Below are positions 31,845-49,698 of a stretch of DNA of 64,000 bases, one piece after another. The position numbers were made by a program, and so were the translations under genes. This DNA comes from Bradyrhizobium commune (GTDB lineage: Bacteria; Pseudomonadota; Alphaproteobacteria; Rhizobiales; Xanthobacteraceae), in the NCBI RefSeq assembly GCF_015624505.1, contig NZ_CP061379.1, forward strand, positions 2,356,001 through 2,420,000, in the 5' to 3' direction. Under the pieces are notes generated by a model that was given only the letters and a program-made list of their open reading frames with translations, was not told the DNA's origin and made no database searches. Positions within the stretch are counted from its first letter, which is position 1; every line of letters starts with the position of its first letter.

Positions 31845-31847
31845 CGA

Positions 31848-32936: not shown

Positions 32937-34459
32937 GATGCCTCTCCTTGCGCGCGCGACTGCGCATCAAGCTGCTTCAGCAGGAAATGTTGGACCTTGC
33001 CCAGCGCCGTGCGCGGCAGGTCAGTGACGAAAACGATGTCGCGCGGGATCTTGTAGCGGGCGAGTTGGGCCTGAAGGTGCACGCGCAGCTCGTCGGCTTC
33101 GAGACGGCAGCCGGATCGCCGGATCACATAGGCGATCGGCACTTCATCCCAGCGCGGATCCGGCCTGCTGACCACCGCACACTCGCTGACGTCGGGATGT
33201 TCCAGCAGGACCCGTTCGACTTCGGCCGGATAGACATTCTCGCCGCCGGAGATGATCATATTCTTCTTGCGGTCGCGGACCCAGAAATAGCCATCCGCGT
33301 CGCACAGGCCGATATCACCGGTGCGATACCAGCCGTCTTGCAGCGCATCGCGTGTGGCGTCCCCATTGCCCCAATATTCGAAGAAGACGTTGGGGCCGCA
33401 CACTGCGATTTCGCCCGGCGTGCCCGCCGGCACCTCGCGGCCTGCTTGATCGATCACCTTTGCTTCGCAGCACAGGCCGGCAAGGCCGGTCGATCCCACG
33501 CGCGAGAGATTGCCGCCAAGGCGCGTATAGACCGCGATGGGACAGGTTTCCGTCGAGCCGTAAACCTGAAGCACCGGAATGCCGCGCGCGACAAAGCGGT
33601 CGATCAGATGCGGCGGCACGATGGTCGAGCCGGTGGTAACAGCCTTTAGCGAAGAGAGGTCGGCTGCGGCCCAGGCGGGATGGTCGCTCACCGCCTGAAT
33701 GATCGCGGGCACCATCACTGTCAGCGTCGGTCGCTCCTGCGCGATGGCGGCAAGCGCCGTATCGGGCGTGAAGCGAGCATGGATCGTGATAGTCGCGCCG
33801 AGCTGGAGCGCGGGCGTCGTCTGGATGTTGAGACCGCCGACGTGGAAGAACGGCAACACCGTCAGCACATGATCGTCGGACGTCATGTTGTGCATATGCT
33901 GGCTCATGACGCCGTTCCAGAACAGGGCTTCCTGGCGCAGCACCGCGCCTTTCGGCCGTCCCGTCGTTCCGGACGTGTAGACAATGAGGAGCGGGCAGGA
34001 GAGATCGGTATGCGGATTTCGTCCGCTGCCCTCGCCATGCGCCAGCAGAGCCTCAAAGGTCGCGCCATGCGGTGGCGTGAAGTCGAGCCCGACGACGGCC
34101 GTCGCCGGCGCGAGTTCGGCGAGGACACCTTCGAAGGCCTGCTCGAGGACTAAAACCTTGGCGCCGGCATCGGCGAGAATGAAGAGCTGCTCGGCGATCG
34201 CCAGCCGCCAGTTCAGGGGCACCAGTAGCGCCCCGAGCCGCGCGCAGGCATAGAGAAGAACGAGATAGTCCGGGCGGTTCAAGCTCAGGATCGCGACACG
34301 ATCCCCGCGGCCGACACCGAGCTCCGTCTTCAATGCCGTTGCCGTCCGTTCGATGCGTGCGGCGAATGCCGCGTAGCTCAGCCGCTCCCCTTCGAAGGCG
34401 ATGGCCGTCTTGTCTGGCGCAAACGCCGCGTTGCGATCGATCAGACTACAGAGGTCCAC
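32933..34459 (-). CDS. AMP-dependent acyl-CoA synthetase
   Basis: Encodes 508 aa from GTG 34459, just after the upstream stop; the longer open frame overlaps the acyl-CoA dehydrogenase gene and is unlikely. AMP-binding motifs: LLIVYTSGTTGRPKGAVLRQE, VYGSTETCPI, DGWYRTGDIG and the C-terminal KNMIISGGENVYPAEVE with the catalytic Lys region LPRTALGKVQHFLL. It forms acyl-AMP and then acyl-CoA. In this operon it may activate a ring-derived or side-chain acid. Confidence 0.87.
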   Translation of the reverse strand: MDLCSLIDRNAAFAPDKTAIAFEGERLSYAAFAARIERTATALKTELGVGRGDRVAILSLNRPDYLVLLYACARLGALLVPLNWRLAIAEQLFILADAGAKVLVLEQAFEGVLAELAPATAVVGLDFTPPHGATFEALLAHGEGSGRNPHTDLSCPLLIVYTSGTTGRPKGAVLRQEALFWNGVMSQHMHNMTSDDHVLTVLPFFHVGGLNIQTTPALQLGATITIHARFTPDTALAAIAQERPTLTVMVPAIIQAVSDHPAWAAADLSSLKAVTTGSTIVPPHLIDRFVARGIPVLQVYGSTETCPIAVYTRLGGNLSRVGSTGLAGLCCEAKVIDQAGREVPAGTPGEIAVCGPNVFFEYWGNGDATRDALQDGWYRTGDIGLCDADGYFWVRDRKKNMIISGGENVYPAEVERVLLEHPDVSECAVVSRPDPRWDEVPIAYVIRRSGCRLEADELRVHLQAQLARYKIPRDIVFVTDLPRTALGKVQHFLLKQLDAQSRAQGEAS

Positions 34460-34461
34460 CG

Positions 34462-35751
34462 TCAGTCGTCCGTTTCGCCGGCCTCGTACAGCGCCTCGCG
34501 GCCGATGCGATCGAGGCAGAGCTCGGCCGTCCAGGGCAGCATCAGCGAGCCGCAGCGGCTGTCGCGATAGATCCGCTCTAGCGGCAGCGAGCGAAGCATG
34601 GCTTGTCCGCCGCAAGTGCGGATCGCGAGCGTCGCAAGCTCATTGGCGCCTTCCATCACCGAATATTGCGCCGCGTAGGCCCGCAACACCTGCTCCTTGC
34701 TCGGATTGGAGCGGGCCTCAGTGACCGCCTGGAACCAGATCGACTTGATCTGCTCGAGCTTGATCTGCATCTGCGCGACCGCGATCTGCTTGGTCGGGTA
34801 CATCCTGCGCTTGACCGGCGGCATGCCCGGCACCTCGCCGCGCAAGTAACGTACGGTGAAATCGTAAGCCGCTTGCGCGAGGCCCATATAGGTCGGCGAC
34901 AGCGTCAGGAACATGTGCGGCCAGCGCATCGCGGCCTGGAAATAGACGCCGCGCGGCATCAGCGCCGAATCCTCAGGCACGAAGACGTCTTTGAACAGCA
35001 GCGTCCGCGAGACCGTGCCGCGCATGCCGAGCGGATCCCAATCGCCGACGACCGAGACGCCCGGTGATTTCGCGGAAATGGCGAGGTAAAGCGTGTTACG
35101 GCGCGAGGCCTTCTCGCCTTCCTCGATCTCGGTGCAGAGCACGCCGTAATAATCAGCATGGCCCGAGAGTGACGCAAAGATCTTCTTGCCGTTGACGATC
35201 CAGCCGCCCTCGACAGGCCTCGCTTCCGTTCCGAAGGCAACGCCGCCTGCGGCCGCCGCACCGCCTTCCGAGAAGGGCTGCGAATAGATCGCACCGTCCT
35301 CGACGATTCTCTTGTAGTGGACCGCTCGCCGCCGCTCGTGCTCCGCGCGGGTCTCGATATCCATGTCGAGATCGTCAGCGAGCGGGCCCGACCACAGGGT
35401 CGAGCAGACATGCATGTTCCAGGTGAGCGCGGTCGCGCCGCAATAGCGGCCGATCTCGGCAGCCGCCAACGCATAGGTCTGGTAGTTCGCGCCTAGCCCG
35501 CCATGCTTCTTGGGGACGGCGATGCCGAGCAGGCCGACGCGATGGAGGTCGCGATAATTCTCGGTCGGGAAGACCGCCTCGCGATCGTAGGTCGCGGCAC
35601 GGCCGGCGAACACGCTCTGGCCGATCTCGCGGGCGCGGGCGATGATGCCGGCCTGTTCGTCGCTCAGTCGGAATGCGACGGGGTCGAAGATCGGCGCATC
35701 GAGTGCGATCTTGTCGCTCGTCCCAATCGTCTTGCTGACTTGCATCGTCAT
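34462..35751 (-). CDS. Acyl-CoA dehydrogenase family protein
   Basis: Encodes 429 aa. FRLSDEQAGIIARAREIGQSVF, GLLGIAVPKKHGGLGANYQTYALA, then the flavin-contact YSQPFSEGGAAAAGGVAFGTEARPVEGGWIVNGKKIFASLSGHADYYGV and the C-terminal VMEGANELATLAIRTCGGQAML fit the family. The usual catalytic Glu position is not obvious near the end, so it may belong to an atypical branch acting on cyclic or aromatic acyl-CoA. It lies in the minus-strand operon behind an alpha/beta hydrolase gene. Confidence 0.82.
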   Translation of the reverse strand: MTMQVSKTIGTSDKIALDAPIFDPVAFRLSDEQAGIIARAREIGQSVFAGRAATYDREAVFPTENYRDLHRVGLLGIAVPKKHGGLGANYQTYALAAAEIGRYCGATALTWNMHVCSTLWSGPLADDLDMDIETRAEHERRRAVHYKRIVEDGAIYSQPFSEGGAAAAGGVAFGTEARPVEGGWIVNGKKIFASLSGHADYYGVLCTEIEEGEKASRRNTLYLAISAKSPGVSVVGDWDPLGMRGTVSRTLLFKDVFVPEDSALMPRGVYFQAAMRWPHMFLTLSPTYMGLAQAAYDFTVRYLRGEVPGMPPVKRRMYPTKQIAVAQMQIKLEQIKSIWFQAVTEARSNPSKEQVLRAYAAQYSVMEGANELATLAIRTCGGQAMLRSLPLERIYRDSRCGSLMLPWTAELCLDRIGREALYEAGETDD

Positions 35752-35763
35752 GGGGCAGTCACC

Positions 35764-36579
35764 TTACGTTTTGGTCACGACGGAATTCAGGAATGGGCCG
35801 AGAGCCGCGTTGAAGGCATCGGGGCGCTCGAGGTTGGCGAGATGGCCGATGCCGGCGAGCTCGACATATTCGGCAGAGGGAATGTAGGTCGCCGTCTTCG
35901 CCATCATCGGTGCCGGCGCATTGTTGTCCTTCGAGCCGGACAACAGCAACGTCGGCACGGAAATATCCTTGAGCGTGCTGCGCTGATCGAACCCGATCAA
36001 GGCCAGCACCATGGCGCGATAGCTCGCCTCCGGGACGCTCGCCATGCACTCCCGCGCGACGTCCATCCCCATCGGATCCGGATCGTCGCCGACAAGGTCT
36101 TTCACCAGCGAAGGCGCCAGCGATTTCATCGTCTCGCCGAGATCGAGTGGTCCCAGCCGCGCCGCAATGAACGATTTCTGCCAGTCACCATCGGCCTTGC
36201 CGAAGGCCGGGCTGGTTTGCGCGAGAACGACGGCGCGCGCTGATGTCGGAGATTGCGCCAGCCATTTCTGGACGATCATGCCGCCGATGGAATGGCCGAT
36301 CAGAATGGGCTTTATTGCGCCGAGCTGCTCGATGAATTGCTGGAGCGCATCCGCAAGGGCAGCGATGCTGACGCTGGCAAGCGGCGCTGATCCGCCATAG
36401 CCCGGCATGTCCCATGCGATAGCGCGGAAGCGATCGCCGAAGGTCGTAAGTTGCTGCCGCCAGGCCCGCGCCGCGCCGCCAATGCCGTGGAGGAAAATCA
36501 AAGGAATCGCGCCCGGATCTCCCGCAGCTTCATAGGCGAAGCGTCCGTCCTTTGTTATCATTGGCGCAGGCTGCGACAC
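35764..36579 (-). CDS. Alpha/beta hydrolase
   Basis: Encodes 271 aa. Oxyanion motif FLHGIGGAARAW, nucleophile elbow GHSIGG (Ser), acid region LLLSGSKDNNAP and terminal His in IAGIGHLANLERPDAF-like text (ELAGIGHLANLERPD). It resembles PcaD/NicD-type hydrolases that act on ring-cleavage products. It is the first gene of the minus-strand operon; the two operator-like repeats at 36641 and 36721 lie just upstream. Substrate unknown: an enol-lactone, a formamide or a CoA thioester are all possible. Confidence 0.82.
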   Translation of the reverse strand: MSQPAPMITKDGRFAYEAAGDPGAIPLIFLHGIGGAARAWRQQLTTFGDRFRAIAWDMPGYGGSAPLASVSIAALADALQQFIEQLGAIKPILIGHSIGGMIVQKWLAQSPTSARAVVLAQTSPAFGKADGDWQKSFIAARLGPLDLGETMKSLAPSLVKDLVGDDPDPMGMDVARECMASVPEASYRAMVLALIGFDQRSTLKDISVPTLLLSGSKDNNAPAPMMAKTATYIPSAEYVELAGIGHLANLERPDAFNAALGPFLNSVVTKT

Positions 36580-36640
36580 GCGACATCCTTCTGCTTGGCC
36601 CGGCGATGCTAACAGGCTTGCGGGCGATGGGAAGCGATAA

Positions 36641-36654
36641 TTTTATACTTAAAG
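36641..36654. promoter_or_regulatory. MarR-type operator candidate 1
   Basis: TTTTA-TACT-TAAAG, one of six related sites with the form TTTRA-N4-TAAAA in this cluster. It lies in the divergent gap between the hydrolase (36579, minus) and the SDR gene (36778, plus). Confidence 0.45.
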
Positions 36655-36720
36655 CAATTTTCAGGCCGGTCGTACCGCACGCGTCCGTTCCCCGTGGAAA
36701 AACACGCTTCATTGCAAAAG

Positions 36721-36734
36721 CTTGAAGTTTAAAA
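36721..36734. promoter_or_regulatory. MarR-type operator candidate 2
   Basis: CTTGA-AGTT-TAAAA, the second site of the divergent gap, 44 bases before the SDR start. Same half-site layout as the sites at 38447, 43969 and 44687. Confidence 0.5.
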
Positions 36735-36777
36735 TATATCGAAGCTTGGGCCTTTAGCCATGTCAGGGAGCCAGCGC

Positions 36778-37539
36778 ATGTCCGGATTGCCGCATTCGCC
36801 GCACGCACTGGTGACGGGTGGCGGTCGCGGTATCGGTCGTGCGATTGCGGCAGCGCTTGTCCAGGCCGGTGCGACGGTGACAGTGCTCGGCCGGAATGCG
36901 GCAACGCTCGAAGAGGCCGTCAATGCAGGAGCTGCCCATTTTGCAGCCGTCGCCGACGTCTCGGACGAAGCCGCGCTGAAGGCAGCCATTGCTGAAGCGC
37001 ATACGCGCAAGCCGATCGATATCTTGATCGCCAACGCCGGCAGCGCCGAGTCGGCGCCGTTCGCGAAATCAGACGGCGCACTGTTTGCGCGCATGATGGA
37101 CGTCAATTTCATGGGTGTGGTCCATGCTATTAGCGCTGTGCTGCCCGGGATGAAGGATCGCCCCTATGGCCGCATCGTCGCGGTCGCATCGACGGCTGGA
37201 CTCAAGGGCTATGCCTATGTCAGCGCCTACGTCGCCGCCAAGCACGCGGTGGTCGGTCTAGTACGTTCGCTCGCCCTCGAGATGGCCGGCAGCAACATAA
37301 CCGTGAATGCGGTCTGTCCCGGCTTCACCGACACTGATCTGGTCGCTGGCAGCATTGACAACATCATGAAGAAGACCGGCCGGACGCGCGAGCAGGCGAT
37401 CGCCGAGCTTGCCAAGCACAATCCGCAGGGGCGTCTGGTCACGCCGCGGGAGGTCGCGGATGCCGTGCTTTGGCTATGTGGCGAGGGCGCAGGCGCGATC
37501 ACCGGACAGGCTATTGCTGTCGCCGGTGGCGAGATCTGA
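36778..37539 (+). CDS. SDR family oxidoreductase
   Basis: Encodes 253 aa. ATG 36778 has AGGGAG seven bases upstream; ATG 36760 is an alternative. Cofactor motif [18 protein letters not shown] motif [12 protein letters not shown], and catalytic Ser/Tyr/Lys as [22 protein letters not shown]. It probably oxidises a hydroxyacyl-CoA or cyclic alcohol intermediate of anthranilate breakdown. First gene of the plus-strand operon SDR - enoyl-CoA hydratase - fused monooxygenase/reductase. Confidence 0.87.
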
Positions 37540-37565
37540 CGGCCCGGAACAAGGAAGGACATCGC

Positions 37566-38402
37566 ATGAGCAGACCAGCCAATCCCGTGACCGTGCCGCT
37601 TGCGGACTATTCGCCGCAGCATTTCCTGCTGGCCGTGGTCGACGGTGTGGCGACCGTGACGTTCAACCGCCCGGAGCGGAAGAATCCGCTGACCTTCGAA
37701 AGCTATCGGGAACTCACCGATTTCTTCCGTGCCTGCGCCTTCGATGATGCGGTGAAGACCGTCGTCGTCACCGGTGCCGGCGGTAATTTCTCGTCCGGCG
37801 GCGATGTGTTCGAGATCATCGGGCCGCTCGTGAAGATGGATACCAAGGGGCTCACGGCCTTTACCCGCATGACCGGTGACCTCGTCAAGGCAATGCGCGC
37901 ATGCCCGCAGCCGATCGTTGCCGCGGTCGAGGGCATCTGCGCTGGCGCCGGCGCCATCGTCGCCATGGCGTCGGACATACGGCTCGCGGCGAGCGGGGCG
38001 AAGGTGGCGTTCCTGTTCAACAAGGTCGGCCTAGCCGGCTGCGACATGGGGGCCTGCGCGATCCTGCCGCGGATCATCGGACAGTCGCGCGCCTCCGAGC
38101 TGCTCTATACGGGCCGGTTCATGACCGCGGAGGAGGGCGAGCGCTGGGGCTTCTTCAGCCGCATCGTGACGCCGGAGCAGGTGCTGCTCCAGGCGCAGCT
38201 GCTGGCTAGGCAGGTCGCGGAAGGGCCGACCTTTGCCAACACCATGACCAAGCGGATGCTGGCGATGGAATGGGCGATGTCGGTGGAGGAGGCGATCGAG
38301 GCTGAAGCCGTTGCCCAGGCGCTGTGCATGACGACCGCCGATTTCGAGCGCGCCTTCGAGGCCTTCGCTAACAAGGTCAAGCCGGTCTTCAGGGGCGACT
38401 AA
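37566..38402 (+). CDS. Enoyl-CoA hydratase/isomerase family protein
   Basis: Encodes 278 aa; ATG 37566 follows AAGGAAGGACATCGC. Crotonase motifs: [20 protein letters not shown], oxyanion loop [15 protein letters not shown], and [20 protein letters not shown] followed by [24 protein letters not shown]. The second usual glutamate position reads Asp/Met here, so hydratase activity may be altered or replaced by ring hydrolase or isomerase action. It probably acts on the CoA-bound ring or its opened chain. Operon member after the SDR gene. Confidence 0.85.
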
Positions 38403-38446
38403 ACCGGTGAGGCTTTCCGGCGGGGAGGCTTGCAGCGGGGACTTGC

Positions 38447-38478
38447 GCGAAATTATTTTAGGGTTAAAATAATTTCGC
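38447..38478. promoter_or_regulatory. Perfect 14-bp inverted repeat, MarR-type operator candidate 3
   Basis: GCGAAATTATTTTA-GGGT-TAAAATAATTTCGC: two perfect 14-bp arms around four bases. It ends 22 bases before the start of the fused monooxygenase/reductase gene and is the strongest copy of the cluster motif. It has no T tract after it, so it is unlikely to be a terminator. Confidence 0.7.
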
Positions 38479-38500
38479 CGGGTCAATTGGCGAGGCTCCT

Positions 38501-40852
38501 ATGAAAGTCGCGATCATCGGTGGTGGACCTGCAGGTCTTTACGCAGCGATCCTGCTCAAGAAGCAGCGGCCGAGCGCCGACATCGCGGTGTATGAGCGCA
38601 ATCGCGCCGACGATACGTTCGGCTTTGGCGTGGTGTTTTCCGACGCCACGCTCGACAATTTCGAGAAGCACGATCTTCCGAGCTACCGCCGCATCACCCA
38701 GAAATTCGCCTACTGGGACGACATCGCCGTGCACTTCCGCGGCACGGTTCATCGGGTCGGCGGCAACGGCTTTTGCGGCTGCTCGCGACAAAAGCTGCTG
38801 CTGATCCTGCAGGAGCGGGCGCGCGAGCTCGGTGTCGTCCTGCATTTCGAAGTAGATGTCGAGGATGAGGCGCGCTTCGCCGCTGCTGATCTCATCCTGC
38901 TCGCCGACGGCATCAACAGCCGCTTCCGCGAGAAATACCTCGATCATTTCCAGCCTGAGGTCGATCTCCGCGCAAACAAGTTCGCCTGGATGGGATCGAC
39001 CCGGCCGCTCGACGCCTTCACCTTCATCTTCCAGGAGACGGAGTGGGGCCCCTTCATCGCCCACGCCTATCAGTACGAGGCCGGGCACTCGACCTGGATT
39101 TTCGAGACCGATCCGCAGACGTTCGAGCGGGCAGGGCTGACCGGGCTGGACGAGACCCAATCTGCAGCACGCATGGCCGAGATCTTCGGCTGGTTCCTCG
39201 ATGGGCACAAGTTGCTCACCAACCGTTCGATGTGGCGCAATTTCCCGATGATCCGCAGCAAGCGCTGGGTCAAGGACAACATGGTGCTGCTTGGCGATGC
39301 CAAGGCGAGCGCCCATTTCTCGATCGGCTCGGGGACCAAGCTCGCGATGGAAGACGCGATCGCGCTGGCTGAGGCGATGGAAAAGGTGCCCAGCATCAAA
39401 GCGGCGCTCGAGGTCTATGAGCACGGCCGCCGCGAGGAGGTCGAGAAGACCCAGCATGCCGCCGACGTCTCGCTGGTCTGGTTCGAGCACGTCGACCGCT
39501 TCTGGGATTTCGATCCCGTGCAGTTCGCCTTCGGCGTGATGACGCGCTCGAAGGCGATCACCTATGACAATCTCAAGCTCCGCGCGCCCAATTTCGTGGC
39601 CGAAGTCGAGAAGTCATTCGCCAAGCAGGCGCGTAGCAATGGCTTCGCCGTCAATGCCGACAAGCCGATGGTCCCGCTGTTCCAGCCATTCCGCCTGCGG
39701 GAGATGGAAATCGCCAACCGCGCCGTGATGTCACCGATGTGCATGTATTCGGCGAAGGAGGGTATCCCGGGCGATTTTCACCTCGTGCACTACGGCTCGC
39801 GGGCCATCGGCGGCGCCGGACTGATCTTCACGGAGATGACCTGCGTCAGCCGCGACGCCCGGATCACCCCCGGCTGCACGGGCCTGTGGAATGACGAGCA
39901 GGAAGCTTCGTGGCGTCGCATTGTGGATTTCGTCCACGGCAACTCGGCTGCAAAAATCTGCCTGCAACTCGGGCATGCCGGCCGCAAGGGCGCGACCAAG
40001 CTGATGTGGGACGGCATCGATCGTCCCCTAGACCAAGGCGGCTGGGACGTGGTCTCAGCATCGCCGCTCCCCTATTTCCCCGACAGCCAGGTGCCGCGCG
40101 AGCTTGATCGCGCGAGCATGAGCGCGGTGAGAGACTCCTTTGTCGCAGCGGCCGAGCGCGGCGAGCGCTGCGGCTTCGACATGCTCGAACTGCACTGTGC
40201 CCACGGCTATCTCTTGGCGAGCTTCATCTCGCCGCTGACCAACACGCGCACTGACGAATATGGTGGCTCACTTGAAAACCGCCTTCGCTTCCCGCTCGAG
40301 GTCTTCGAGGCGCTGCGCGCGGTGTGGCCTTCGCACAAGCCGATGTCGGTACGTATCTCGGCGACCGACTGGGCTGAGGGCGGAATCGATGGCGACGATG
40401 CCGTGGCGATTGCGCGCGCCTTTGCCGAGGCTGGTGTCGATCTCGTCGACGTCTCGACGGGCCAGACCGTGCGCGACGCGCAGCCGGTCTATGGGCGCAT
40501 GTTCCAGACGCCGTTCTCCGACCAGGTGCGCAACGAGGCGCGCGTCGCCACCATGTGTGTCGGCAACATCACGACCGCTGACCAGGCCAATACCATCCTG
40601 GCGGCCGGCCGGGCGGATCTCGTCGCTCTCGGCCGCCCGCATCTGGTTGATCCATTCTTCACCATGAAGGCAGCGGCCTGGTACGGGGCAAACGACGCGT
40701 TCTGCCCGCCGCAATATCTGCCCGGAAAAGATCAGATTTTCCGCAATAGCGTGCGTGACAGGCAAGATCTCGAGGAGCTGCGAATTAAGGCTAAGCCCAA
40801 GACCCGGGCGGAGCTCAAGGCGGAGGCGACAAAGCCGCTTGCGGCAGAGTGA
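38501..40852 (+). CDS. 2-aminobenzoyl-CoA monooxygenase/reductase-type fusion (salicylyl-CoA 5-hydroxylase/oxidoreductase annotation)
   Basis: Encodes 783 aa, close to the Azoarcus evansii enzyme. Residues 1-375 are a PHBH-like FAD monooxygenase: [49 protein letters not shown]. Residues about 385-760 are an Old Yellow Enzyme-type reductase: [40 protein letters not shown], and [30 protein letters not shown]. The enzyme hydroxylates and then reduces the CoA-bound aromatic ring, giving a non-aromatic 2-amino-5-oxocyclohexene-type product. With the CoA ligase at 44752 it defines this cluster as 2-aminobenzoate catabolism. Confidence 0.88.
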
Positions 40853-40907
40853 CCGCCCGTGCCAATTTAACCCATTGCCTGGCGTGTTTTGAGTGGAGTT
40901 GAGGGCG

Positions 40908-42158
40908 ATGAAGGCGATTATCGTCGGTGGCGGTATCGGTGGTCTCACCACGGCGTTGATGCTGCGGGCACGTGGCATCGCCTGCGAGATTTTCGAGCAG
41001 GCCGACACCATCCGTGAGCTCGGCGTCGGCATCAACACGCTGCCACATGCCATGCGAGAGCTTGCCAGCCTTGGTCTTCTGCAGAAGCTCGACGACGTCG
41101 CGATCCGCACCGACCAGCTCTATTACCTCAACCGCCACGGCCAGGAGGTCTGGCGCGAAGCCCGTGGCATCGATGCCGGCCACGATGTGCCGCAATTCTC
41201 GATCCACCGCGGACGCCTTCAGAGTGTCATCCATCGTGCCGTCGAGGAGCGGCTCGGGCCCGAGGCGATCCACACTGGCTGCCGGCTCGGCTCCTTCACT
41301 CAGGATGAGGGCGGCGTCTCGGCGTACTTTTTCGATCGCACCGGTTCGCACATCCACACCGCGCGTGGCGATATCCTGATCGGTGCCGATGGCATTCATT
41401 CACGCGTGCGCGACACACTGTTTCCAAACGAGGGGCCGCCATGCTGGAACGGCCTGATGCTGTGGCGCGGCGCGCGCGACTGGCCGCTGTTCCTCTCCGG
41501 CAAATCGATGATCGTGGCCGGTGGCCTCAATGCCAAGGTCGTGGTCTACCCGATCGCGGAGGGATCGAGCCCGGCGAGCCGCTTGACCAATTGGGCGGTG
41601 CTGGTGAAGGTCGGTGAGGGCAACGCGCCGCCGCCGCGGAAAGAGGACTGGTCGCGGCCGGGCCGGCGCGAGGAGCTGATGCCGCATGTGGCGCGCTTCT
41701 CCGTGCCCTATATCGACGTGAAGAGCCTGATCTCGGCGACGCCCGAATTCTACGAATATCCGACCTGCGACCGCGATCCCTTGCCCTATTGGTCGTCCGG
41801 GCGCGTCACGCTGCTCGGCGATGCCGCGCACCCGATGTACCCGGTTGGCTCGAACGGCGCGTCGCAGGCGATCCTCGACGCGCGCTGCCTCGCGGACGCG
41901 CTGGTGCGCGCCGAGCATCCGCGCCAGGCGCTGGTCGAATATGAGAAGAAGCGCCTGCCGATGACCGCGGAGATCGTCCGCTCCAACCGTCGTGGCGGCC
42001 CCGAAGGCGTCATCGACGCCGTCGAGCAGCTCGCGCCCGACGGCTTCGACAATGTCGACAATGTGCTGAGCTATTCTCAGCGCGAGGCGATCGTGCGCGG
42101 CTATGCCAGCAAGGCCGGCTTCGCCGCAGTGCCAGGACTTGCGGCAGTGCGCGCTTAA
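40908..42158 (+). CDS. FAD-dependent monooxygenase (PhzS/salicylate-hydroxylase-like)
   Basis: Encodes 416 aa; ATG 40908 follows GAGGGCG. Motifs: KAIIVGGGIGGLTTALMLRARGI, the DG loop ILIGADGIHSRVR and the GD motif GRVTLLGDAAHPMYPVGSNGASQAILDA. The N-terminal EQADTIRELGVGINTLPHA and FSIHRGRLQSVIHRAV match PhzS-like flavin oxidoreductases common in Bradyrhizobium. It hydroxylates a free aromatic acid or amine. Lying after the fused enzyme, it may feed an additional aminoaromatic into the pathway. Substrate unknown. Confidence 0.82.
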   Translation: MKAIIVGGGIGGLTTALMLRARGIACEIFEQADTIRELGVGINTLPHAMRELASLGLLQKLDDVAIRTDQLYYLNRHGQEVWREARGIDAGHDVPQFSIHRGRLQSVIHRAVEERLGPEAIHTGCRLGSFTQDEGGVSAYFFDRTGSHIHTARGDILIGADGIHSRVRDTLFPNEGPPCWNGLMLWRGARDWPLFLSGKSMIVAGGLNAKVVVYPIAEGSSPASRLTNWAVLVKVGEGNAPPPRKEDWSRPGRREELMPHVARFSVPYIDVKSLISATPEFYEYPTCDRDPLPYWSSGRVTLLGDAAHPMYPVGSNGASQAILDARCLADALVRAEHPRQALVEYEKKRLPMTAEIVRSNRRGGPEGVIDAVEQLAPDGFDNVDNVLSYSQREAIVRGYASKAGFAAVPGLAAVRA

Positions 42159-42167
42159 GGCCCGCCG

Positions 42168-42626
42168 CTATCCGGCGCCAGGCGGCGGCGGCAGGAAGTG
42201 GATGTTGAACTCCGCGGCCATCGCCACCACGTCCTCCGGCTTCTGCTCCTTCATGTTGTGAAGGCCCCAGAACAGGTCGAACAGTTTTTTGGTCGGCGAG
42301 ACCCAGAACAACACCTTCGCGGTCTGGTCCGACTTGTTGAAGATGCCATGCGGCACGCCCATGCCGAGCCGGATCAGGTCGCCCGGGGTCGCTTGGGCCT
42401 CGGAATTGCCGAGCATGAAGTCGAGCTTGCCCTCCAGCATGTAGAGATACTCATCCTGGTCGGGATGGATGTGCGGTGGCACGAACGTGCCCGGCGGCAA
42501 TGTCGCATGCCAGGAGAAGCTGTTCTCGGTATTGCTCTTCGGCACATAAGTCTGGCCGAGGATGTTCCAGGAAATTCCCTGGAGGCCCTCATTGGCCCGC
42601 GTGATGCCGGTGATTTCGCTCTTCAT
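42168..42626 (-). CDS. Cupin domain protein
   Basis: Encodes 152 aa. Cupin motif 1 is PPGTFVPPHIHPDQDEYLYMLEGKL with metal ligands HxH...E. Motif 2 is PGDLIRLGMGVPHGIFNKSD with the final His. Single-domain cupins of this type bind iron, manganese or nickel and may be dioxygenases, isomerases or binding proteins. It lies between the monooxygenase (convergent) and the ABC binding protein, 29 bases after the latter on the same strand, so it is co-transcribed with it. Confidence 0.82.
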   Translation of the reverse strand: MKSEITGITRANEGLQGISWNILGQTYVPKSNTENSFSWHATLPPGTFVPPHIHPDQDEYLYMLEGKLDFMLGNSEAQATPGDLIRLGMGVPHGIFNKSDQTAKVLFWVSPTKKLFDLFWGLHNMKEQKPEDVVAMAAEFNIHFLPPPPGAG

Positions 42627-42655
42627 TACAGTCCTCCCTCAACGCGACACGCGGC

Positions 42656-43831
42656 TTAGTTCGCCGCCTTGCAGTCCTTGGCATAGCGGTCGCCGTAATT
42701 CTCAAAAACCTTCTGCACGATCTCGGTCTGGAACTTGCCGTCCGGGCGCTTGGCGACCTTGGTCAGGTAAAAGTCCTGGATCGGATAGCCGTTGGTGTTG
42801 AACTTGAAGGAGCCGCGCAACGAGGTGAAGTCCGCCTTCTTCAAGGCCGCCGCAATGGCATCCTTATTGGAGAGATCGCCCTTTACGCCCTTGACCGCGC
42901 TGTCGATCAGCATTGCGGCGTCATAGGCCTGGAAGGCATAGGTGCCGGGTACGCCATTGTATGCGGCCTCATAGGCGGCGACGAACTTCTTGTTTTGGGG
43001 ATTGTCAAGATTTGGCGCCCAGTTGGCGCCGCCGAACATGCCGACGGCGGCGTCCTGCTGCGCCGGCAGGGTCGATTCATCCACGGTGAAAGCCGACAGA
43101 ACAGGGATACTGTCGGCAAGGCCGGCCTGCTTGTATTGCTTGACGAGATTGACGCCGAGGCCGCCCGGCATGAACGTGAAGAGCGCATCGGGCTTCTGCG
43201 CCGAGATCTTGGAAAGCTCCGGCTGGAAGTCCAGCGTGTTCAGCGGCATGTAGGACTCTTCGACGATCTCGCCCTTGTAGTCGAGCTTGAATCCGGCGAC
43301 CGAGTCCTTGCCCGCCTGATAGTTCGGCACCATCAGGTACATGCGCTTGTAGCCGCGATCCTGCGCGACCTTGCCGAGGATCTCGTGCACCTGATCGTTC
43401 TGGTACGAGGTCACATAGAAGAACGGATTACAGTCCTTGCCGGCAAAGGTCGACGGGCCGGCATTCGGGCTGATCAGGAAGGTCTTCGATTCCGTGACCG
43501 GCCGGTGGATCGCCTGAAGGATGTTAGAGAAGATCGGGCCGACCACGAAATCGACCTTGTCGCGCTCGAGCAGACCCTTGACCTTTGTCACGGCCGCATC
43601 TGGTTTGAGCTCGTCGTCGACCACCACGACCTCGACATCGCGACCGCCCATCTTGCCGCCGAGATCCTTCACCGCGAGCGCAAAGCCGTCGCGGACCTGT
43701 TGCCCCAGCGCAGCCGCAGGCCCCGACAGAGTTACGATCACGCCCAGCTTGATCTTGTCTTCGGCGAGGGCGGGGCTCAGCGCGGTGCCAAGCAGGAAGG
43801 CGGCCGCGGCCATGGTGAATTGCGTCTTCAT
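42656..43831 (-). CDS. ABC transporter substrate-binding protein (LivJ/branched-chain type)
   Basis: Encodes 391 aa. Sec signal peptide at residues 1-23 (AAAAFLLGTALSPALA, then EDKIKLGVIV). Periplasmic-binding-protein type I layout: TLSGPAAALGQQVRDGFALAVKDLGGKMGGRDVEVVVVDDE, then VDFVVGPIFSNILQAIHRPV and KTFLISPNAGPSTFAGKDCNPFFY. Relatives bind aromatic acids such as benzoate derivatives. It is expressed divergently from the MarR gene, with two operator-like repeats between, so regulated uptake of 2-aminobenzoate or a relative is likely. The permeases and ATPases are not nearby. Confidence 0.87.
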   Translation of the reverse strand: MKTQFTMAAAAFLLGTALSPALAEDKIKLGVIVTLSGPAAALGQQVRDGFALAVKDLGGKMGGRDVEVVVVDDELKPDAAVTKVKGLLERDKVDFVVGPIFSNILQAIHRPVTESKTFLISPNAGPSTFAGKDCNPFFYVTSYQNDQVHEILGKVAQDRGYKRMYLMVPNYQAGKDSVAGFKLDYKGEIVEESYMPLNTLDFQPELSKISAQKPDALFTFMPGGLGVNLVKQYKQAGLADSIPVLSAFTVDESTLPAQQDAAVGMFGGANWAPNLDNPQNKKFVAAYEAAYNGVPGTYAFQAYDAAMLIDSAVKGVKGDLSNKDAIAAALKKADFTSLRGSFKFNTNGYPIQDFYLTKVAKRPDGKFQTEIVQKVFENYGDRYAKDCKAAN

Positions 43832-43968
43832 GATCTGTCCCCCGTGACATCAGGCTTGCGTCGCAAGCCACGTACTCCGATCCAAGCTTAAGCCGATGAT
43901 GGCTTCCGCGGCAAGCAAGGCTGAAAGCGTTGTGCCATCATGCAACGGGCATGCATGCAAGCGGCGCG

Positions 43969-43996
43969 CCAATTGCTTGAAGCTTAAAGAAATTGG
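43969..43996. promoter_or_regulatory. MarR-type operator candidate 4 (28-bp near-palindrome)
   Basis: CCAATTGCTTGAAG / CTTAAAGAAATTGG: 12 of 14 positions pair around the centre. It is placed between the divergent ABC binding protein and marR genes, suggesting autoregulation. Confidence 0.6.
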
Positions 43997-44044
43997 CATG
44001 CGGTCGATTGTTGTAGCTTTAGGCTTGCGGCCGGGGCCGATTTA

Positions 44045-44058
44045 TTTGAAGCTCAAAA
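44045..44058. promoter_or_regulatory. MarR-type operator candidate 5
   Basis: TTTGA-AGCT-CAAAA, weaker than the other copies, 54 bases before the marR start. The 280-base gap 43832-44111 contains this site, the site at 43969 and no gene. Confidence 0.4.
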
Positions 44059-44111
44059 CGTTAGGGAATCCGTGGCCTCCGCCACTGCCAGCCATCAGTG
44101 TTTGCATCAAG

Positions 44112-44603
44112 ATGCTCGATTCCGAGACCAAGGCCGTCGAAACGCCGGAGGATCATGCCGAGGAGCTTCGGCTGTGGTTGCGCCTCCTGACCTGCACGAC
44201 CCTGATCGAGGGCGAGGTTCGCGGCCGGCTGCGGCAGCGCTTCGACGTGACGCTGCCGCGTTTCGACCTGATGGCGCAGCTCGACAAGGCGCCCGACGGT
44301 ATGACCCTGTCCGACATCTCCAAGCGCATGATGGTCTCCAACGGCAACGTTACCGGCCTCGTCGAGCGCCTGGTGGAATCCGGCCATCTCGACCGCCGGA
44401 CCTCGGAGACGGACCGCCGCGTCCAGGTGATCCGCCTCACGAAACTCGGCCGCGCCGAGTTTCGTAGGATGGCCGCGGAGCACGAGACCTGGATCGCCGA
44501 TCTCTTCGCTGACCTGACGCCGAAGGACGTACGCGAATTGATGCGGCTCCTGGCCAAGACCAAGGCGTCGGCGCAGAAATCGGCAGTGCGCCGCCGGCCT
44601 TAA
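44112..44603 (+). CDS. MarR family transcriptional regulator
   Basis: Encodes 163 aa from ATG 44112; the open frame extends upstream but that part overlaps operator sites. Winged helix: FDVTLPRFDLMAQLDKAPDGMTLSDISKRMMVSNGNVTGLVERLVESGHLDRRTSETDRRVQVIRLTKLG in segments, with the wing SETDRRVQVIRLT. Such regulators often respond to aromatic acyl-CoA and repress their own operon. The gene stands between the binding-protein gene and the CoA ligase, at the centre of the repeated TTTRA-N4-TAAAA sites, and is the obvious local regulator. Confidence 0.87.
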   Translation: MLDSETKAVETPEDHAEELRLWLRLLTCTTLIEGEVRGRLRQRFDVTLPRFDLMAQLDKAPDGMTLSDISKRMMVSNGNVTGLVERLVESGHLDRRTSETDRRVQVIRLTKLGRAEFRRMAAEHETWIADLFADLTPKDVRELMRLLAKTKASAQKSAVRRRP

Positions 44604-44686
44604 ATGGATGGTCGGGCAGTCCGCCAATCCCATCTTGCCGCAGGAAAATGCATGGGATGCCCAAAATCCGCTATTGCGCCGAATTG

Positions 44687-44700
44687 TTTTAAGCCTAAAA
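44687..44700. promoter_or_regulatory. MarR-type operator candidate 6
   Basis: TTTTA-AGCC-TAAAA, perfect five-base arms, 51 bases before the ligase start at 44752. This spacing is suitable for repressing its promoter. Confidence 0.6.
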
Positions 44701-44751
44701 TGTTTCCCAGATAGTGCTGCCGGGTGCTTTCCATGCGCAAAGGAGCGTGCG

Positions 44752-46443
44752 ATGGCCAACGCCGCCAAGGTTCAAGTGACGGGCTCGTCTGACGGCAATG
44801 TCGCGACGGCCCATGTCGACACATTCGCGCGGCAGCATCTGCCGCCGCGAGAGCTCTGGCCCGAATTCACCTTCACGCGGCCGGAGCTGCACTATCCGCC
44901 GCGATTGAACTGCGTCAGCTATTTCCTCGACCGTTGGGTCGAGCAGGGGCACGGCGATGCGCCCTGCGTCATCAGTCCCGCCGTCAGCTACTCCTATCGC
45001 GAGCTGCAAACGCTGGTGAACCGGATCGCTAATGTACTGGTCAGCAAGCTTGGTCTCGTGACGGGCGGACGTGTGCTGCTGCGCTCCGCAAACAACCCGA
45101 TGATGGTTGCGACCTATCTCGCGGTGATCAAGGCCGGCGGCATTTGCGTGGCGACCATGCCGCTGCTGCGCGCCAAGGAGCTGTCCTATCCGATCCAGAA
45201 GGCTGAAATCACGCTGGCGCTCTGCGACGGAAAACTTGCAGATGAAATGGAGAAGGCGAGAGCCGCTGTGCCCGGGCTCAAGCACGTCCTCTATTGGGGC
45301 AATGGTGCAGCCGACTCGCTCGAGGCGCTGATCGCGGACGCGAGTCCAGAGTTCAACGCCGTCGATACCGCTTCCGATGACATCTGCCTGATCGCCTTCA
45401 CCTCTGGCACGACCGGCGATCCCAAGGGCACCATGCATTTCCACCGGGACATGCTGGCCGTGTGTGACGGCTACGCGCGCAACATCCTGCGGGCCGCACA
45501 GAACGATCGCTTCGTCGGCTCGGCGCCGCTCGCCTTCACCTTTGGCTTCGGTGGCGTGCTGTTTCCCATGCATATCGGCGCTTCCTTCGTCGTGCTGGAG
45601 AAGACGACGCCGGACGATATTCTGAACGCGATCGAGCAGTACAAGATCACGGTGTGTTTCACCGCTCCGACCGCCTATCGAGCTATGATCGGCAAGCTCC
45701 CAGGCCGCGATATATCTTCGCTCCGCAAGTGCGTCTCCGCCGGCGAGACGCTGCCGAAGCCGACATTCGATGCCTGGCACAAGGCGACCGGCATCAAGCT
45801 GATGGATGGCATTGGCTCGACCGAGATGCTGCACATCTTTATCAGTGCGACCGAGGACGAGATCCGTCCCGGCGCGACCGGAAAGCCGGTGCCGGGCTAT
45901 GAAGCCAAGATCGTCGATGACGCCGGCGACGACATGCCGCCGGGCACGATGGGACGGCTTGCGGTGCGCGGACCGACCGGCTGCCGGTATCTCGCCGACG
46001 AGCGCCAGCGCAAATATGTCCAGAACGGCTGGAATATCACCGGCGATACTTACCTCATGGATAGCGACGGTTACTTCTGGTACCAGTCGCGCTCGGACGA
46101 CATGATCGTGTCGTCTGGCTACAACATCGCCGGCACCGACGTCGAGGCGGCGCTGCTCACGCATCCGTCCGTCGTCGAGTGCGGCGTCGTCGGTGCGCCC
46201 GACGAAGCGCGCGGAATGATCGTGAAGGCCTATGTCATCACCGTGCCCGGCGTCACGCCGGACGCCAAGCTCGCGGCTGAGTTGCAGGAGCATGTCAAAC
46301 GGGAGATCGCGCCATACAAATATCCGCGCGCGATCGAATTTGTGACGCAATTGCCGAAAACCGAGACCGGCAAGTTGAAGCGCTTTGCCTTGCGCCAGCT
46401 GGCGCAGGCGGCGGCAGCATCTTCCGGCGTTGCCGCAGAATGA
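44752..46443 (+). CDS. 2-aminobenzoate/benzoate-CoA ligase family protein
   Basis: Encodes 563 aa. ATG 44752 has AAAGGAGCGTGCG upstream. N-terminal FARQHLPPRELWPEF and LNCVSYFLDRWVEQG are characteristic of benzoate/2-aminobenzoate-CoA ligases. AMP-binding core FTSGTTGDPKGTMHFHRD, LAFTFGFGGVLFPMHIG, DGIGSTEMLHIFIS, then WYQSRSDDMIVSSGYNIAGTDVE and the catalytic Lys region LPKTETGKLKRFAL. It converts the aromatic acid to its CoA thioester, the entry step for the fused monooxygenase/reductase. RidA gene follows ten bases later. Confidence 0.88.
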   Translation: MANAAKVQVTGSSDGNVATAHVDTFARQHLPPRELWPEFTFTRPELHYPPRLNCVSYFLDRWVEQGHGDAPCVISPAVSYSYRELQTLVNRIANVLVSKLGLVTGGRVLLRSANNPMMVATYLAVIKAGGICVATMPLLRAKELSYPIQKAEITLALCDGKLADEMEKARAAVPGLKHVLYWGNGAADSLEALIADASPEFNAVDTASDDICLIAFTSGTTGDPKGTMHFHRDMLAVCDGYARNILRAAQNDRFVGSAPLAFTFGFGGVLFPMHIGASFVVLEKTTPDDILNAIEQYKITVCFTAPTAYRAMIGKLPGRDISSLRKCVSAGETLPKPTFDAWHKATGIKLMDGIGSTEMLHIFISATEDEIRPGATGKPVPGYEAKIVDDAGDDMPPGTMGRLAVRGPTGCRYLADERQRKYVQNGWNITGDTYLMDSDGYFWYQSRSDDMIVSSGYNIAGTDVEAALLTHPSVVECGVVGAPDEARGMIVKAYVITVPGVTPDAKLAAELQEHVKREIAPYKYPRAIEFVTQLPKTETGKLKRFALRQLAQAAAASSGVAAE

Positions 46444-46453
46444 GGATAGAGAT

Positions 46454-46918
46454 TTGTCCGTGACGACACCGAAAGGCCCGCATCTTGCGGTGCTGCCGAC
46501 CGCAGCCGAGGACGAAACCCGTTCCACGGCGCAGATGCTCCAGCCCTCCGGCTGGCCGATGCCGAAGGGCTATGCCAACGGCATGGCCGCGGACGGCCGC
46601 ATCGTCGTGACCGGCGGAGTGATCGGTTGGGATATCGAGGAACGTCTCGCGGATGGCTTTGTCGCCCAAGTGCACCAGACCCTGAGCAACATCGCTGCGA
46701 TCCTGGCGGAGGCCGGTGCGCGACCCGAGCATCTCGTGCGCCTCACCTGGTACGTGGTCGACATGGACGAGTACCTGACGAACCTGAGGGAGCTCGGCAA
46801 GGTCTATCGGACGATCTTCGGCACGCACTATCCTGCGATGGCACTGGTGCAGGTCGTCCGCCTCGTCGAGAAGGCGGCGCGCGTCGAAATCGAGGCGACC
46901 GCCGTCATTCCGCGCTGA
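46454..46918 (+). CDS. RidA family protein (enamine/imine deaminase type)
   Basis: Encodes 154 aa from TTG 46454 (GAGG eight bases upstream); GTG 46460 is an alternative. Motifs: GMAADGRIVVTGGVIGWD, VAQVHQTLSNIAAILAEAGARPEHLVRLTWYVVDMDEYL, and YPAMALVQVVRLVEKAARVEIEATAVIP. It is the longer AbmD-like or YjgH-like branch. RidA proteins hydrolyse enamines to ketones and ammonia. The monooxygenase/reductase of this pathway makes a cyclic enamine, so removing the amino group is a reasoned role here. Same operon as the ligase. Confidence 0.82.
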   Translation: MSVTTPKGPHLAVLPTAAEDETRSTAQMLQPSGWPMPKGYANGMAADGRIVVTGGVIGWDIEERLADGFVAQVHQTLSNIAAILAEAGARPEHLVRLTWYVVDMDEYLTNLRELGKVYRTIFGTHYPAMALVQVVRLVEKAARVEIEATAVIPR

Positions 46919-47763: not shown

Positions 47764-47777
47764 TTGACGCAGCTCAA
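47764..47777. promoter_or_regulatory. FixK2/FNR-type box
   Basis: TTGA-CGCAGC-TCAA, a second perfect match, 71 bases before phaC. Its first bases coincide with an in-frame TTG, which argues for translation starting later, at 47848. Confidence 0.7.
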
Positions 47778-47847
47778 ACGCACGCGCCAGGCGCGGCTCT
47801 ATCCTGGCGCGGAAAACAGGACCAGAAGCGTGCAGGAACCTTCCGTC

Positions 47848-49698
47848 ATGAGCGTCGTGCATACATTTCCTCGGCCCGCAGGGCCGGCGGGGCCGCCGAC
47901 GCCCGGCATTCCCGTTGCTGGCGTCAGCCCCTCTCCGGTGAGCAGCGAGGCGTCCGGCAAACGGTTAGTCCCGAGCGCTGAGCCGGCGTCCGAGCCGCAG
48001 CCGCTCGACCGTGCCCTCCACGCAATGCTGGCGCGGTTCACGGGCGGGATTTCGCCGGCGGCCTTGTCGCTCGCCTGGCTTGATTGGGGCTCGCATCTTG
48101 CTGTGGCGCCCCAGCGCCAGATGGAGCTGGCCCGCGATGTCCTGCGCGACATTGGCCGCTTTGTCGAAGCCGCCGCCCACGCGACGTCGCCCGAGCAGAA
48201 ACCTTGGTCCGTGATTCAACCGCATGGGCGGGATCGTCGTTTCAAAGAGCCGCAGTGGGAGGTCGCGCCCTTCAATCTGTTGGCGCAGGCCTTTCTGCTC
48301 GGCGAGCGCTGGTGGCACGACGCGACAACCGGCGTGCGCGGTGTCTCGCGTGCCAATGAAGCGATCGTCGAGTTCTCGGTGCGGCAGATGCTCGATACGT
48401 TCGCGCCGTCGAATTTCGTGGCGACCAACCCCGAAGTGCTGGAGAAGGCGTTTCGGAGCGGCGGAGAGAATTTCATCTTCGGTTGGCAGAATTGGTGCAG
48501 CGATCTGATGCGCCTGCTGTTCGCAGCAAAATCGCCCGGCCATGAGCAGTTCGTGGTTGGCAAGACGGTTGCGGCCTCGACCGGCAAGGTCGTCTACCGC
48601 AACGAACTGATGGAGCTCATCCAGTACGCTCCGACCACCGCGAAGGTGAGGCCGGAGCCGATCCTGATCGTGCCGGCCTGGATCATGAAGTACTACATCC
48701 TCGATCTGTCACGGCAGAATTCGCTGGTGCGCTACCTCACCAGTCAGGGTTTTACCGTGTTCGCGATTTCCTGGCGCAATCCCGACGCGAGGGACCGGGA
48801 TGTTGCTTTCGACGACTATCGCAACCTCGGCGTCATGGCCGCTCTGGACACGATCGGCAAGATTGTGCCCGGGCGGAAGGCCCATGGGCTCGGCTATTGT
48901 CTGGGCGGAACGTTGCTATCGATAGCCGCCGCTGCGATGGCCCGCGACGGCGACGTCCGTCTCGGCACGGTCACGCTCCTTGCCGCGCAGACCGATTTCA
49001 CCGAAGCGGGCGAATTGACGCTCTTCATCAACGAAAGCCAGGTCACGTTCCTCGAAGACATGATGTGGCAACGGGGCTTTCTCGATACGGCGCAGATGGC
49101 CGGTGCATTTGCGCTCCTCCGCTCCAACGATCTGATCTGGTCGCGGCTGTCGCACGATTATCTGATGGGCGATGCGGCGCCGCCGAGTGACCTGATGGCC
49201 TGGAACGCGGACGCGACGCGGCTGCCCTATCGCATGCATTCGGAATATCTGCGCAAGCTGTTCCTCGACAACGATCTGGCTGAAGGTCGCTACACTGTCG
49301 ACGGCCGCAGCATCGCGCTCTCCGACATCCATGCGCCGATGTTCGTGGTCGGCACGCTCGCAGATCACGTGGCGCCGTGGCGGTCTGTCTATAAGCTCCA
49401 CTACCAGGTCGACGCCGACGTGACCTTCCTGCTGACCAGCGGCGGCCACAATGCCGGCGTGGTCGCGCCTCCCGACGATCCCGGGCACAGCTATCAGGTG
49501 ATGACCAAGGCTGCGGATGCGCCCTATGTCGGCCCGGACCAATGGCTGAAGCTGGCACCGCATGTTGAGGGATCGTGGTGGCCGGAATGGACGCAGTGGC
49601 TGACAGCGAGATCGGGCAATCCCTGTGATCCGCCGCCAATCGGATCTGGAGATATCGAGAGCCTGCCCGACGCACCCGGCGACTATGTCCGCACCTAG
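47848..49698 (+). CDS. phaC: Poly(3-hydroxyalkanoate) synthase, class I
   Basis: Encodes 616 aa from ATG 47848. N-terminal PhaC domain (PSNFVATNPEVLEKAFRSGGEN, GKVVYRNELMELIQYAP) and the catalytic alpha/beta domain. The nucleophile is Cys351 in GLGYCLGGT; Asp506 (GTLADHVAPW) and His534 (SGGHNAG) complete the triad. It polymerises hydroxyacyl-CoA into storage granules. The N-terminus has a Pro/Ser-rich extension of about 50 residues. The promoter has two FixK-type boxes, suggesting use as a reductant sink at low oxygen. It overlaps the convergent CHAD gene by four bases. Confidence 0.9.
   Translation: MSVVHTFPRPAGPAGPPTPGIPVAGVSPSPVSSEASGKRLVPSAEPASEPQPLDRALHAMLARFTGGISPAALSLAWLDWGSHLAVAPQRQMELARDVLRDIGRFVEAAAHATSPEQKPWSVIQPHGRDRRFKEPQWEVAPFNLLAQAFLLGERWWHDATTGVRGVSRANEAIVEFSVRQMLDTFAPSNFVATNPEVLEKAFRSGGENFIFGWQNWCSDLMRLLFAAKSPGHEQFVVGKTVAASTGKVVYRNELMELIQYAPTTAKVRPEPILIVPAWIMKYYILDLSRQNSLVRYLTSQGFTVFAISWRNPDARDRDVAFDDYRNLGVMAALDTIGKIVPGRKAHGLGYCLGGTLLSIAAAAMARDGDVRLGTVTLLAAQTDFTEAGELTLFINESQVTFLEDMMWQRGFLDTAQMAGAFALLRSNDLIWSRLSHDYLMGDAAPPSDLMAWNADATRLPYRMHSEYLRKLFLDNDLAEGRYTVDGRSIALSDIHAPMFVVGTLADHVAPWRSVYKLHYQVDADVTFLLTSGGHNAGVVAPPDDPGHSYQVMTKAADAPYVGPDQWLKLAPHVEGSWWPEWTQWLTARSGNPCDPPPIGSGDIESLPDAPGDYVRT

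Follow-up and report, generated by a model that had tools for sequence, protein, structure and literature searches.

Aerobic breakdown of anthranilate by way of 2-aminobenzoyl-CoA has been described in Azoarcus evansii, in which a coenzyme A (CoA) ligase, a flavin monooxygenase/reductase and beta-oxidation enzymes make up the pathway (PMC4539516); the part of that paper available to us describes no regulator or operator. MarR-family control of a CoA-dependent aromatic pathway is exemplified by CouR, a repressor with its own operator (PMC4737184), and the kynurenine pathway genes of Pseudomonas aeruginosa are controlled by KynR, a regulator of the Lrp/AsnC type (Knoten 2011, cited in PMC4938989). 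Auxin degradation (iad) loci end in anthranilate, and for one of their regulators, MarR_50 (IadR2), Conway et al. (2022) found neither the ligand nor the DNA site; gene 51 is the only gene of the locus reported there to be highly raised in the Variovorax MarR_50 deletion (PMC9613470). Here we analyze a stretch of 64,000 nucleotides from Bradyrhizobium commune (the window; positions 2356001-2420000 of a genome of one contig and 7,622,528 bases), in which six related inverted repeats accompany a marR gene and a cluster predicted to break down anthranilate through CoA esters.

The cluster shares with the Azoarcus evansii pathway its hallmarks, a ligase and a fused monooxygenase/reductase (a 170 kDa homodimer there, 783 aa here), and also beta-oxidation enzymes, the functions of the window enzymes being predicted from their sequences. 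CouR resembles the window MarR in the kind of system but is not closely related to it (it is absent from the 45 solved sequences matched). KynR likewise acts on kynurenine genes but belongs to another protein family, whereas control here would be exerted by a MarR common to anthranilate breakdown. Among the open-literature matches listed (titles and abstract openings), which are no proof of absence, none names a regulator, or an operator, for the 2-aminobenzoyl-CoA pathway, and none a MarR for a kynurenine operon. A word search for MarR and kynuren- gave nothing in the main text of PMC6449761, and one for anthranil- and kynuren- gave nothing in PMC10458429. A MarR regulon of an aromatic pathway is of a familiar kind; what appears to be new, within the open literature among those matches, is the operator, its tie to a kynurenine operon and the bridge to IadR2.

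Operator-like sites in the cluster and at a distant kynurenine operon

A preliminary description of the window had proposed that the six repeats mark a MarR regulon for CoA-dependent anthranilate breakdown. All six are present where it placed them, the positions 38447 and 43969 being ends of longer repeats (Table 1). Its formula for them, TTTRA-N4-TAAAA, has zero matches on the + strand of the window when taken literally; the common core is instead YTTKA-N4-YAAAR, with the ideal form TTTTAAGCTTAAAA. The perfect 14-bp arms reported at 38447 are seen as 38447-38460 and 38465-38478, and the 28-bp near palindrome reported at 43969 was likewise recovered, with 13 of 17 positions paired in a 34-bp frame. 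Outer symmetry beyond the core varies, and the sites at 36641, 36721 and 44045 pair at just 6-8 of 17 positions. The sites do stand before nearly every transcription unit, namely the hydrolase, SDR (short-chain dehydrogenase)-hydratase, fused-enzyme, binding-protein/cupin, marR and ligase-Rid units, with operons inferred from gene order and distances counted to the start codons adopted in this analysis.

We built a symmetric matrix from the six sites. It ranks them 1-6 in the 64 kb with scores of 20.5-23.6, the next place scoring 14.75, and each site still ranks 1-6 in the window when it is omitted from the matrix. None of 30 first-order Markov surrogates of the window reached 20.5 (maximum 17.1), and not one of the 215 250-bp tiles outside 36001-46000 holds a site of at least 15.5. 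The protein encoded at 44112-44603 has a MarR-type winged helix domain, both Pfam models scoring above cut-off. The combination by which we recognize a 2-aminobenzoyl-CoA pathway, an aromatic CoA ligase together with a fused monooxygenase/reductase, is found as well: TIGR02262 and NF006101 (1142.5 bits against a cut-off of 1078 for this ACMR-type fusion) exceed their cut-offs, and the fusion has the two-domain architecture.

That no copies occur elsewhere, as the preliminary description had it, holds for the window and fails for the genome. Two pattern searches of the genome, with matches then scored by the matrix, uncovered a seventh strong site, TTTTAAGCTTAAAG, at genome positions 4329273-4329286. 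Its score of 24.6 is the highest among the matches listed genome-wide, and it was absent from matrix training. The site lies 1.93 Mb from the cluster and 72 bp before an operon encoding a hydrolase, tryptophan 2,3-dioxygenase (TIGR03036, 432.9 bits, cut-off 390.7) and kynureninase (TIGR01814, 276.2 bits, cut-off 246.4). The hydrolase, the first gene of the operon, matches NF058665 (named hormone-sensitive lipase in NCBIfam) and may act as a formamidase; together the three form the route from tryptophan to anthranilate. A simple base-composition model predicts 0.33 sites of at least 20 in the genome, compared with seven among the matches listed, all at these two loci and six of them the training sites. 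One more listed place has an upper-bound score of 20.0, and six further pattern matches fall outside those listed. Two weaker matches were judged to be chance: one at 5908409, with a score of 17.5, is flanked by a chain-length-determinant-like gene and small frames, and the other, at 6946107, scores 17.1.

Overall, the distribution of the sites suggests that they are operators of the MarR encoded at 44112-44603, a predicted self-controlling repressor, and we put the probability of the full regulon reading at roughly 85%. The support comes from sites that go with genes, from 16/20 loci of other families (see below) and from the untrained genome-wide match on the tryptophan-to-anthranilate operon. 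The regulon would thus be wider than first proposed; inclusion of that operon is supported by the comparison of genomes, from which binding by MarR is predicted.

Conservation in the genus and beyond

A MarR match at E 1e-30 is present in 58 of the 60 genomes of the genus, our own included; of the two genomes lacking one, the first is assembled in 720 contigs and the second measures 4.3 Mb. We compared the same gaps in 20 further clusters, taken as stretches around MarR from 20 of the 57 other genomes, and counted a gene as preceded by a site if one of at least 15.5 lay within 250 bp before it. The sites recur at the same promoters: before abH in 7/7, the ACMR gene in 16/16, marR in 20/20, bclA in 20/20 and sbp in 19/20 (the remaining one scores 15.4), where a single site may count twice because abH/sdr and sbp/marR each have one common gap. 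For sdr the count is 14/18, and in the four exceptions sdr lies directly behind ACMR. Genes inside the units have none (ech 0/19, fmo 0/20, cupin 0/20, ridA 0/20). The sites also follow gene gain and loss. Clusters without abH have one site fewer in the abH/sdr gap, and in those without ACMR (L066-L068), which keep the rest, the stretch from ech to fmo is free of sites down to a score of 12; a fourth cluster without ACMR, L079, is cut by a contig end. Where ACMR (52-53% identical) or bclA (52-58%) is a distant version, a site still precedes it.

The kynurenine operon behaves in the same way. Tryptophan dioxygenase is encoded at 48 places in 47/60 genomes, and at 45 of these 48 loci a site (15.3 to 24.6) occupies the gap before the operon; one of the other three (L059/L317) is cut by a contig end. 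At 30 dioxygenase loci the 1500 bp downstream hold no site of at least 18, and the upstream side has one in 29. Three arrangements carry the site: hydrolase-dioxygenase-kynureninase (31 loci), dioxygenase-kynureninase opposite the hydrolase gene and adjacent to the cluster at its ridA-bclA end (11 loci), and divergent dioxygenase/kynureninase (3 loci). Dioxygenases of the second and third arrangements are 64-66% identical to that of our genome. In the 29 loci that can be aligned with our own, the 14-mer is 99.5% identical, compared with 45% and 76% for its 50-bp flanks.

A class-wide search detected a MarR relative at E 1e-25 in 50/289 genomes. Of the 49 genomes besides our own we sampled 20, each from another family, with MarRs 48-61% identical to that of the window. 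At 16 of the 20 loci a site of 15.6-26.1 lies within 600 bp before sdr, ACMR or marR (none was found in this range at L146, L150, L155 and L158); such sites occur in 22/895 400-bp tiles of these loci, operators included. The perfect palindrome TTTTAAGCTTAAAA occurs twice among them, and in two loci (L161, L162) the kynurenine genes lie inside the same cluster.

Phylum-wide, 72/398 genomes have a MarR relative. In betaproteobacteria a different 17-bp palindrome, TTTAGTTGACAACTAAA, stands before ACMR or sdr; it was found, with at most three mismatches, at 20/71 loci compared with 6/1420 random segments. We kept it as a lead only: Burkholderia relatives account for most of the 20, the same loci served to define the pattern, and a TTGACA overlaps it.

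Several observations weigh against the regulon reading or limit its reach. A site of at least 15.5 also occurs in 85 of 2000 segments of 250 bp drawn at random from the 20 clusters, operators included. The strict core has 116 matches in the 60 genomes; among the 75 listed, 66 belong to the two loci as judged from how far they are from marR or dioxygenase, one lies at a marR paralogue and 8 elsewhere, and since the reversed pattern matches 95 times, bare counts say little. Two dioxygenase copies depart from the rule, a second copy in G036 (L086) without a site and one in G012 (L089) with only a weak site of 14.5. The two genome patterns take in every 14-mer scoring at least 19 and 1785/2077 of those scoring at least 17; given this reach and the partial listing, weaker operators of our own genome may be missed. 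In part of the genus, genomes also encode paralogous MarRs with similar sites, and operators there could be shared with a second MarR. No sigma-70-like promoter near or overlapping the sites passed a consensus scan. Finally, the motif was found in just 6/20 stretches of the phylum sample and 4/18 outside our own order, where the operator is thus mostly different or absent.

Three side observations from the genus concern these loci. The dioxygenase reading frame at L089 looks split, and its weak site may belong to a decaying operon. A marR paralogue (48-56% identical) at L129-L135 and L143 is preceded by a site of 17.5-23.4, and four of these eight loci adjoin a second ACMR (50-51% identical). 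At L096 (G038:C46) a second binding-protein gene, 46% identical to sbp, has a strong site (23.6, position 3903) about 340 bp ahead of it and is a possible transporter member of the regulon.

Inducer, substrate and mode of control

Under the proposed mechanism, MarR would repress at all seven sites, its own gene included. Anthranilate could arise from tryptophan via the kynurenine route or from auxin in strains with iad genes, or be taken up from outside via the binding protein, and it would be activated to 2-aminobenzoyl-CoA. An aromatic ligand, most likely 2-aminobenzoyl-CoA and next anthranilate itself, would release MarR, so that the ligase, the fused monooxygenase/reductase, the beta-oxidation-like enzymes and the binding protein would be made. 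Release at the seventh operator, 1.93 Mb off, would add the enzymes that convert tryptophan to anthranilate. Tryptophan catabolism is therefore predicted to be under end-product control by a MarR here, as opposed to KynR in Pseudomonas aeruginosa.

The choice of inducer is the part of this mechanism with the strongest competitor. Free anthranilate, or kynurenine, could release MarR in place of the CoA ester, a possibility we take seriously while holding it to be the less probable one. The kynurenine operon yields anthranilate and not its CoA ester, and because the ligase gene carries its own site (44687), a CoA-ester inducer would need a basal level of ligase. On the other hand, p-coumaroyl-CoA releases CouR whereas p-coumarate does not (PMC4737184), and with this precedent 2-aminobenzoyl-CoA would seem to have somewhat better odds than free anthranilate.

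The regulon and its MarR could also be as described and yet serve salicylate or another aromatic acid degraded via its CoA ester, the kynurenine site being incidental. Family models do not give anthranilate: NCBIfam calls the fusion a salicylyl-CoA 5-hydroxylase/oxidoreductase, a name that applies above cut-off, and the substrate is therefore not readable from the model. However, the seventh site stands before a tryptophan-to-anthranilate operon, which favors anthranilate over salicylate, and an incidental site is hard to reconcile with its recurrence at 45/48 dioxygenase loci of the genus, with the kynurenine genes beside the ridA-bclA end in 11 loci, or with their position inside the cluster in L161 and L162. 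Auxin loci, which end in anthranilate (PMC9613470), hold the same genes (L207, L240, L246). With the site common to the kynurenine operon and the co-located iad genes both pointing indirectly to anthranilate, we consider another substrate unlikely.

It is similarly improbable that MarR activates from these sites, or both activates and represses. No promoter consensus could be placed at the sites, which leaves room for activation, but characterized MarR regulators mostly repress, and in Variovorax gene 51 rises when MarR_50, a likely member of the same subfamily, is deleted (both from PMC9613470). The repeats are AT-rich palindromes between genes of a window of 62% G+C, which might suggest mere intergenic sequence or structural elements that no single regulator binds; this reading is very hard to maintain in view of the score gap and the surrogates, the 0/215 tiles, the same promoters in 20 clusters and a site better conserved than its flanks.

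Kinship with auxin-locus regulators and gene content of the cluster

Relatives of the window MarR were placed in iad loci at L141, L207, L224 and L246 (iad gene names were assigned in this analysis from domains). L141 combines iadA-B-C-D-E with an SDR and marR; L207 encodes iadA-iadB-marR, its MarR 64% identical to that of the window, and behind a site ACMR-sdr-cupin-ech; and iad genes occur together with marR and ACMR in Paenalcaligenes hominis (L246) and Verticiella sediminum (L240). The MarR adjoining iadA in Variovorax gossypii is a full-length match (311.6 bits) to 7kfo, the solved MarR_73 (IadR). About 25 kb after it, an SDR gene 53% identical to sdr is followed by a marR whose product shows 46% identity to that of the window, and across the Variovorax loci mapped the gene before marR is 53-54% identical to sdr. 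This distant marR is likely MarR_50 and its SDR gene 51, as judged by gene counting (IadR = 73, marR about the 24th) in a species other than the one studied, with several intermediates inferred from gap lengths. The window MarR, 46% identical to the MarR_50 candidate so picked, reaches 30.5 bits against the IadR structure 7kfo.

In a tree of 78 sequences the window MarR and its orthologues in the genus stand beside a clade that includes marR paralogues of the genus (joint support 98/94); these paralogues are separated from iadA by about 19-25 kb, except that in L133 the two are on different contigs. The Variovorax MarRs form a separate clade, and long branches make deep placements unsure. IadR2 would share with the window MarR one subfamily and an adjoining SDR gene like sdr. 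It differs in setting: no protein of our genome is a strong match to IadA (best 147 bits, compared with 275-296 in genomes having one), and no iad locus was found in it. We did not find the operator motif in the Variovorax promoter before SDR-marR.

We consider it an even bet that the orphan IadR2 regulators and the window MarR are one subfamily that senses anthranilate or its CoA ester, with TTTTAAGCTTAAAA-type operators in the class, that tryptophan, auxin and anthranilate breakdown are joined in this way, and that Variovorax gene 51 is controlled via a diverged operator. A candidate operator, a regulon and a short ligand list are now available for a MarR subfamily whose auxin-locus members had none, and the role of IadR2 becomes directly testable. 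The operator could also serve in a sensor for anthranilate or its CoA ester.

Separately, a stretch resembling TTCAGAACTAAA directly precedes the probable SDR start codon in 7/9 of the Variovorax sequences shown (L221-L230); it is a candidate IadR2 operator or else belongs to the translation start. In L138, L141 and L142 the iadA start coincides with, or closely follows, a weaker site, TTTGAKGTCTAAAA (17.4-17.6). We considered the marR paralogues of the genus at L136 and L141 as the auxin sensor IadR and dropped them: among solved structures both match 3boq best, 7kym does not appear in the list for either, and 7kfo is a weak match for L136 and no listed match for L141.

Table 1. Sites and genes of the cluster, in window coordinates
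Feature	Position	Strand	Core or context	Score or family evidence
acyl-CoA dehydrogenase-like protein	34462..35751	-	hydrolase operon	PF02771, PF02770, PF00441
abH, alpha/beta hydrolase	35764..36579	-	first gene of hydrolase operon	PF00561
site a	36641..36654		TTTTATACTTAAAG; 61 bp before hydrolase operon (abH)	matrix score 20.5
site b	36721..36734		CTTGAAGTTTAAAA; 25 bp before SDR-hydratase operon (sdr)	matrix score 21.2
sdr, short-chain dehydrogenase	36760..37539	+		PF00106
ech, enoyl-CoA hydratase family	37566..38402	+		NF006107, 466.6 bits (cut-off 330)
site c	38447..38478		core TTTTAGGGTTAAAA at 38456-38469; 31 bases before fused monooxygenase/reductase	
fused flavin monooxygenase/old-yellow-enzyme reductase, ACMR type, 783 aa	38501..40852	+		PF01494 plus PF00724
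fmo, second FAD monooxygenase	40908..42158	+		NF005720, 578.6 bits (cut-off 400)
cupin protein	42168..42626	-		PF07883
sbp, periplasmic substrate-binding protein	42656..43831	-		PF13458
site d	43969..43996		core CTTGAAGCTTAAAG at 43976-43989; between sbp and marR, 144 bases before sbp	
site e	44045..44058		TTTGAAGCTCAAAA; 53 bp before marR	matrix score 20.5
marR, MarR-family regulator, 163 aa	44112..44603	+		PF12802, 48.2 bits (cut-off 27); PF01047, 44.0 bits (cut-off 24.6)
site f	44687..44700		TTTTAAGCCTAAAA; 51 bp before CoA ligase gene	matrix score 23.6, top in window
bclA, benzoate-CoA ligase family, candidate 2-aminobenzoate-CoA ligase	44752..46443	+		TIGR02262, 393.6 bits (cut-off 375.25)
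ridA, Rid-family-like protein	46454..46918	+	end of ligase operon	TIGR00004, 61.4 bits, under cut-off 106.25 (search run on longer frame 46385-46918)

After the cluster, a PHA synthase-like protein is encoded at 47764-49698 (TIGR01838, 535 bits, under the cut-off of 622.65); the matrix finds no site of at least 15 before its gene. On the other side, the hydrolase operon (30852-36579, - strand) goes on to encode a ligase, then an octopine-dehydrogenase-like protein and a 3-hydroxyacyl-CoA dehydrogenase. Relatives of the latter two (58% and 51% identical; L307:10-2071) occur in the iad locus of Variovorax gossypii, on the far side of IadR, a hint of an indole- or auxin-related role.

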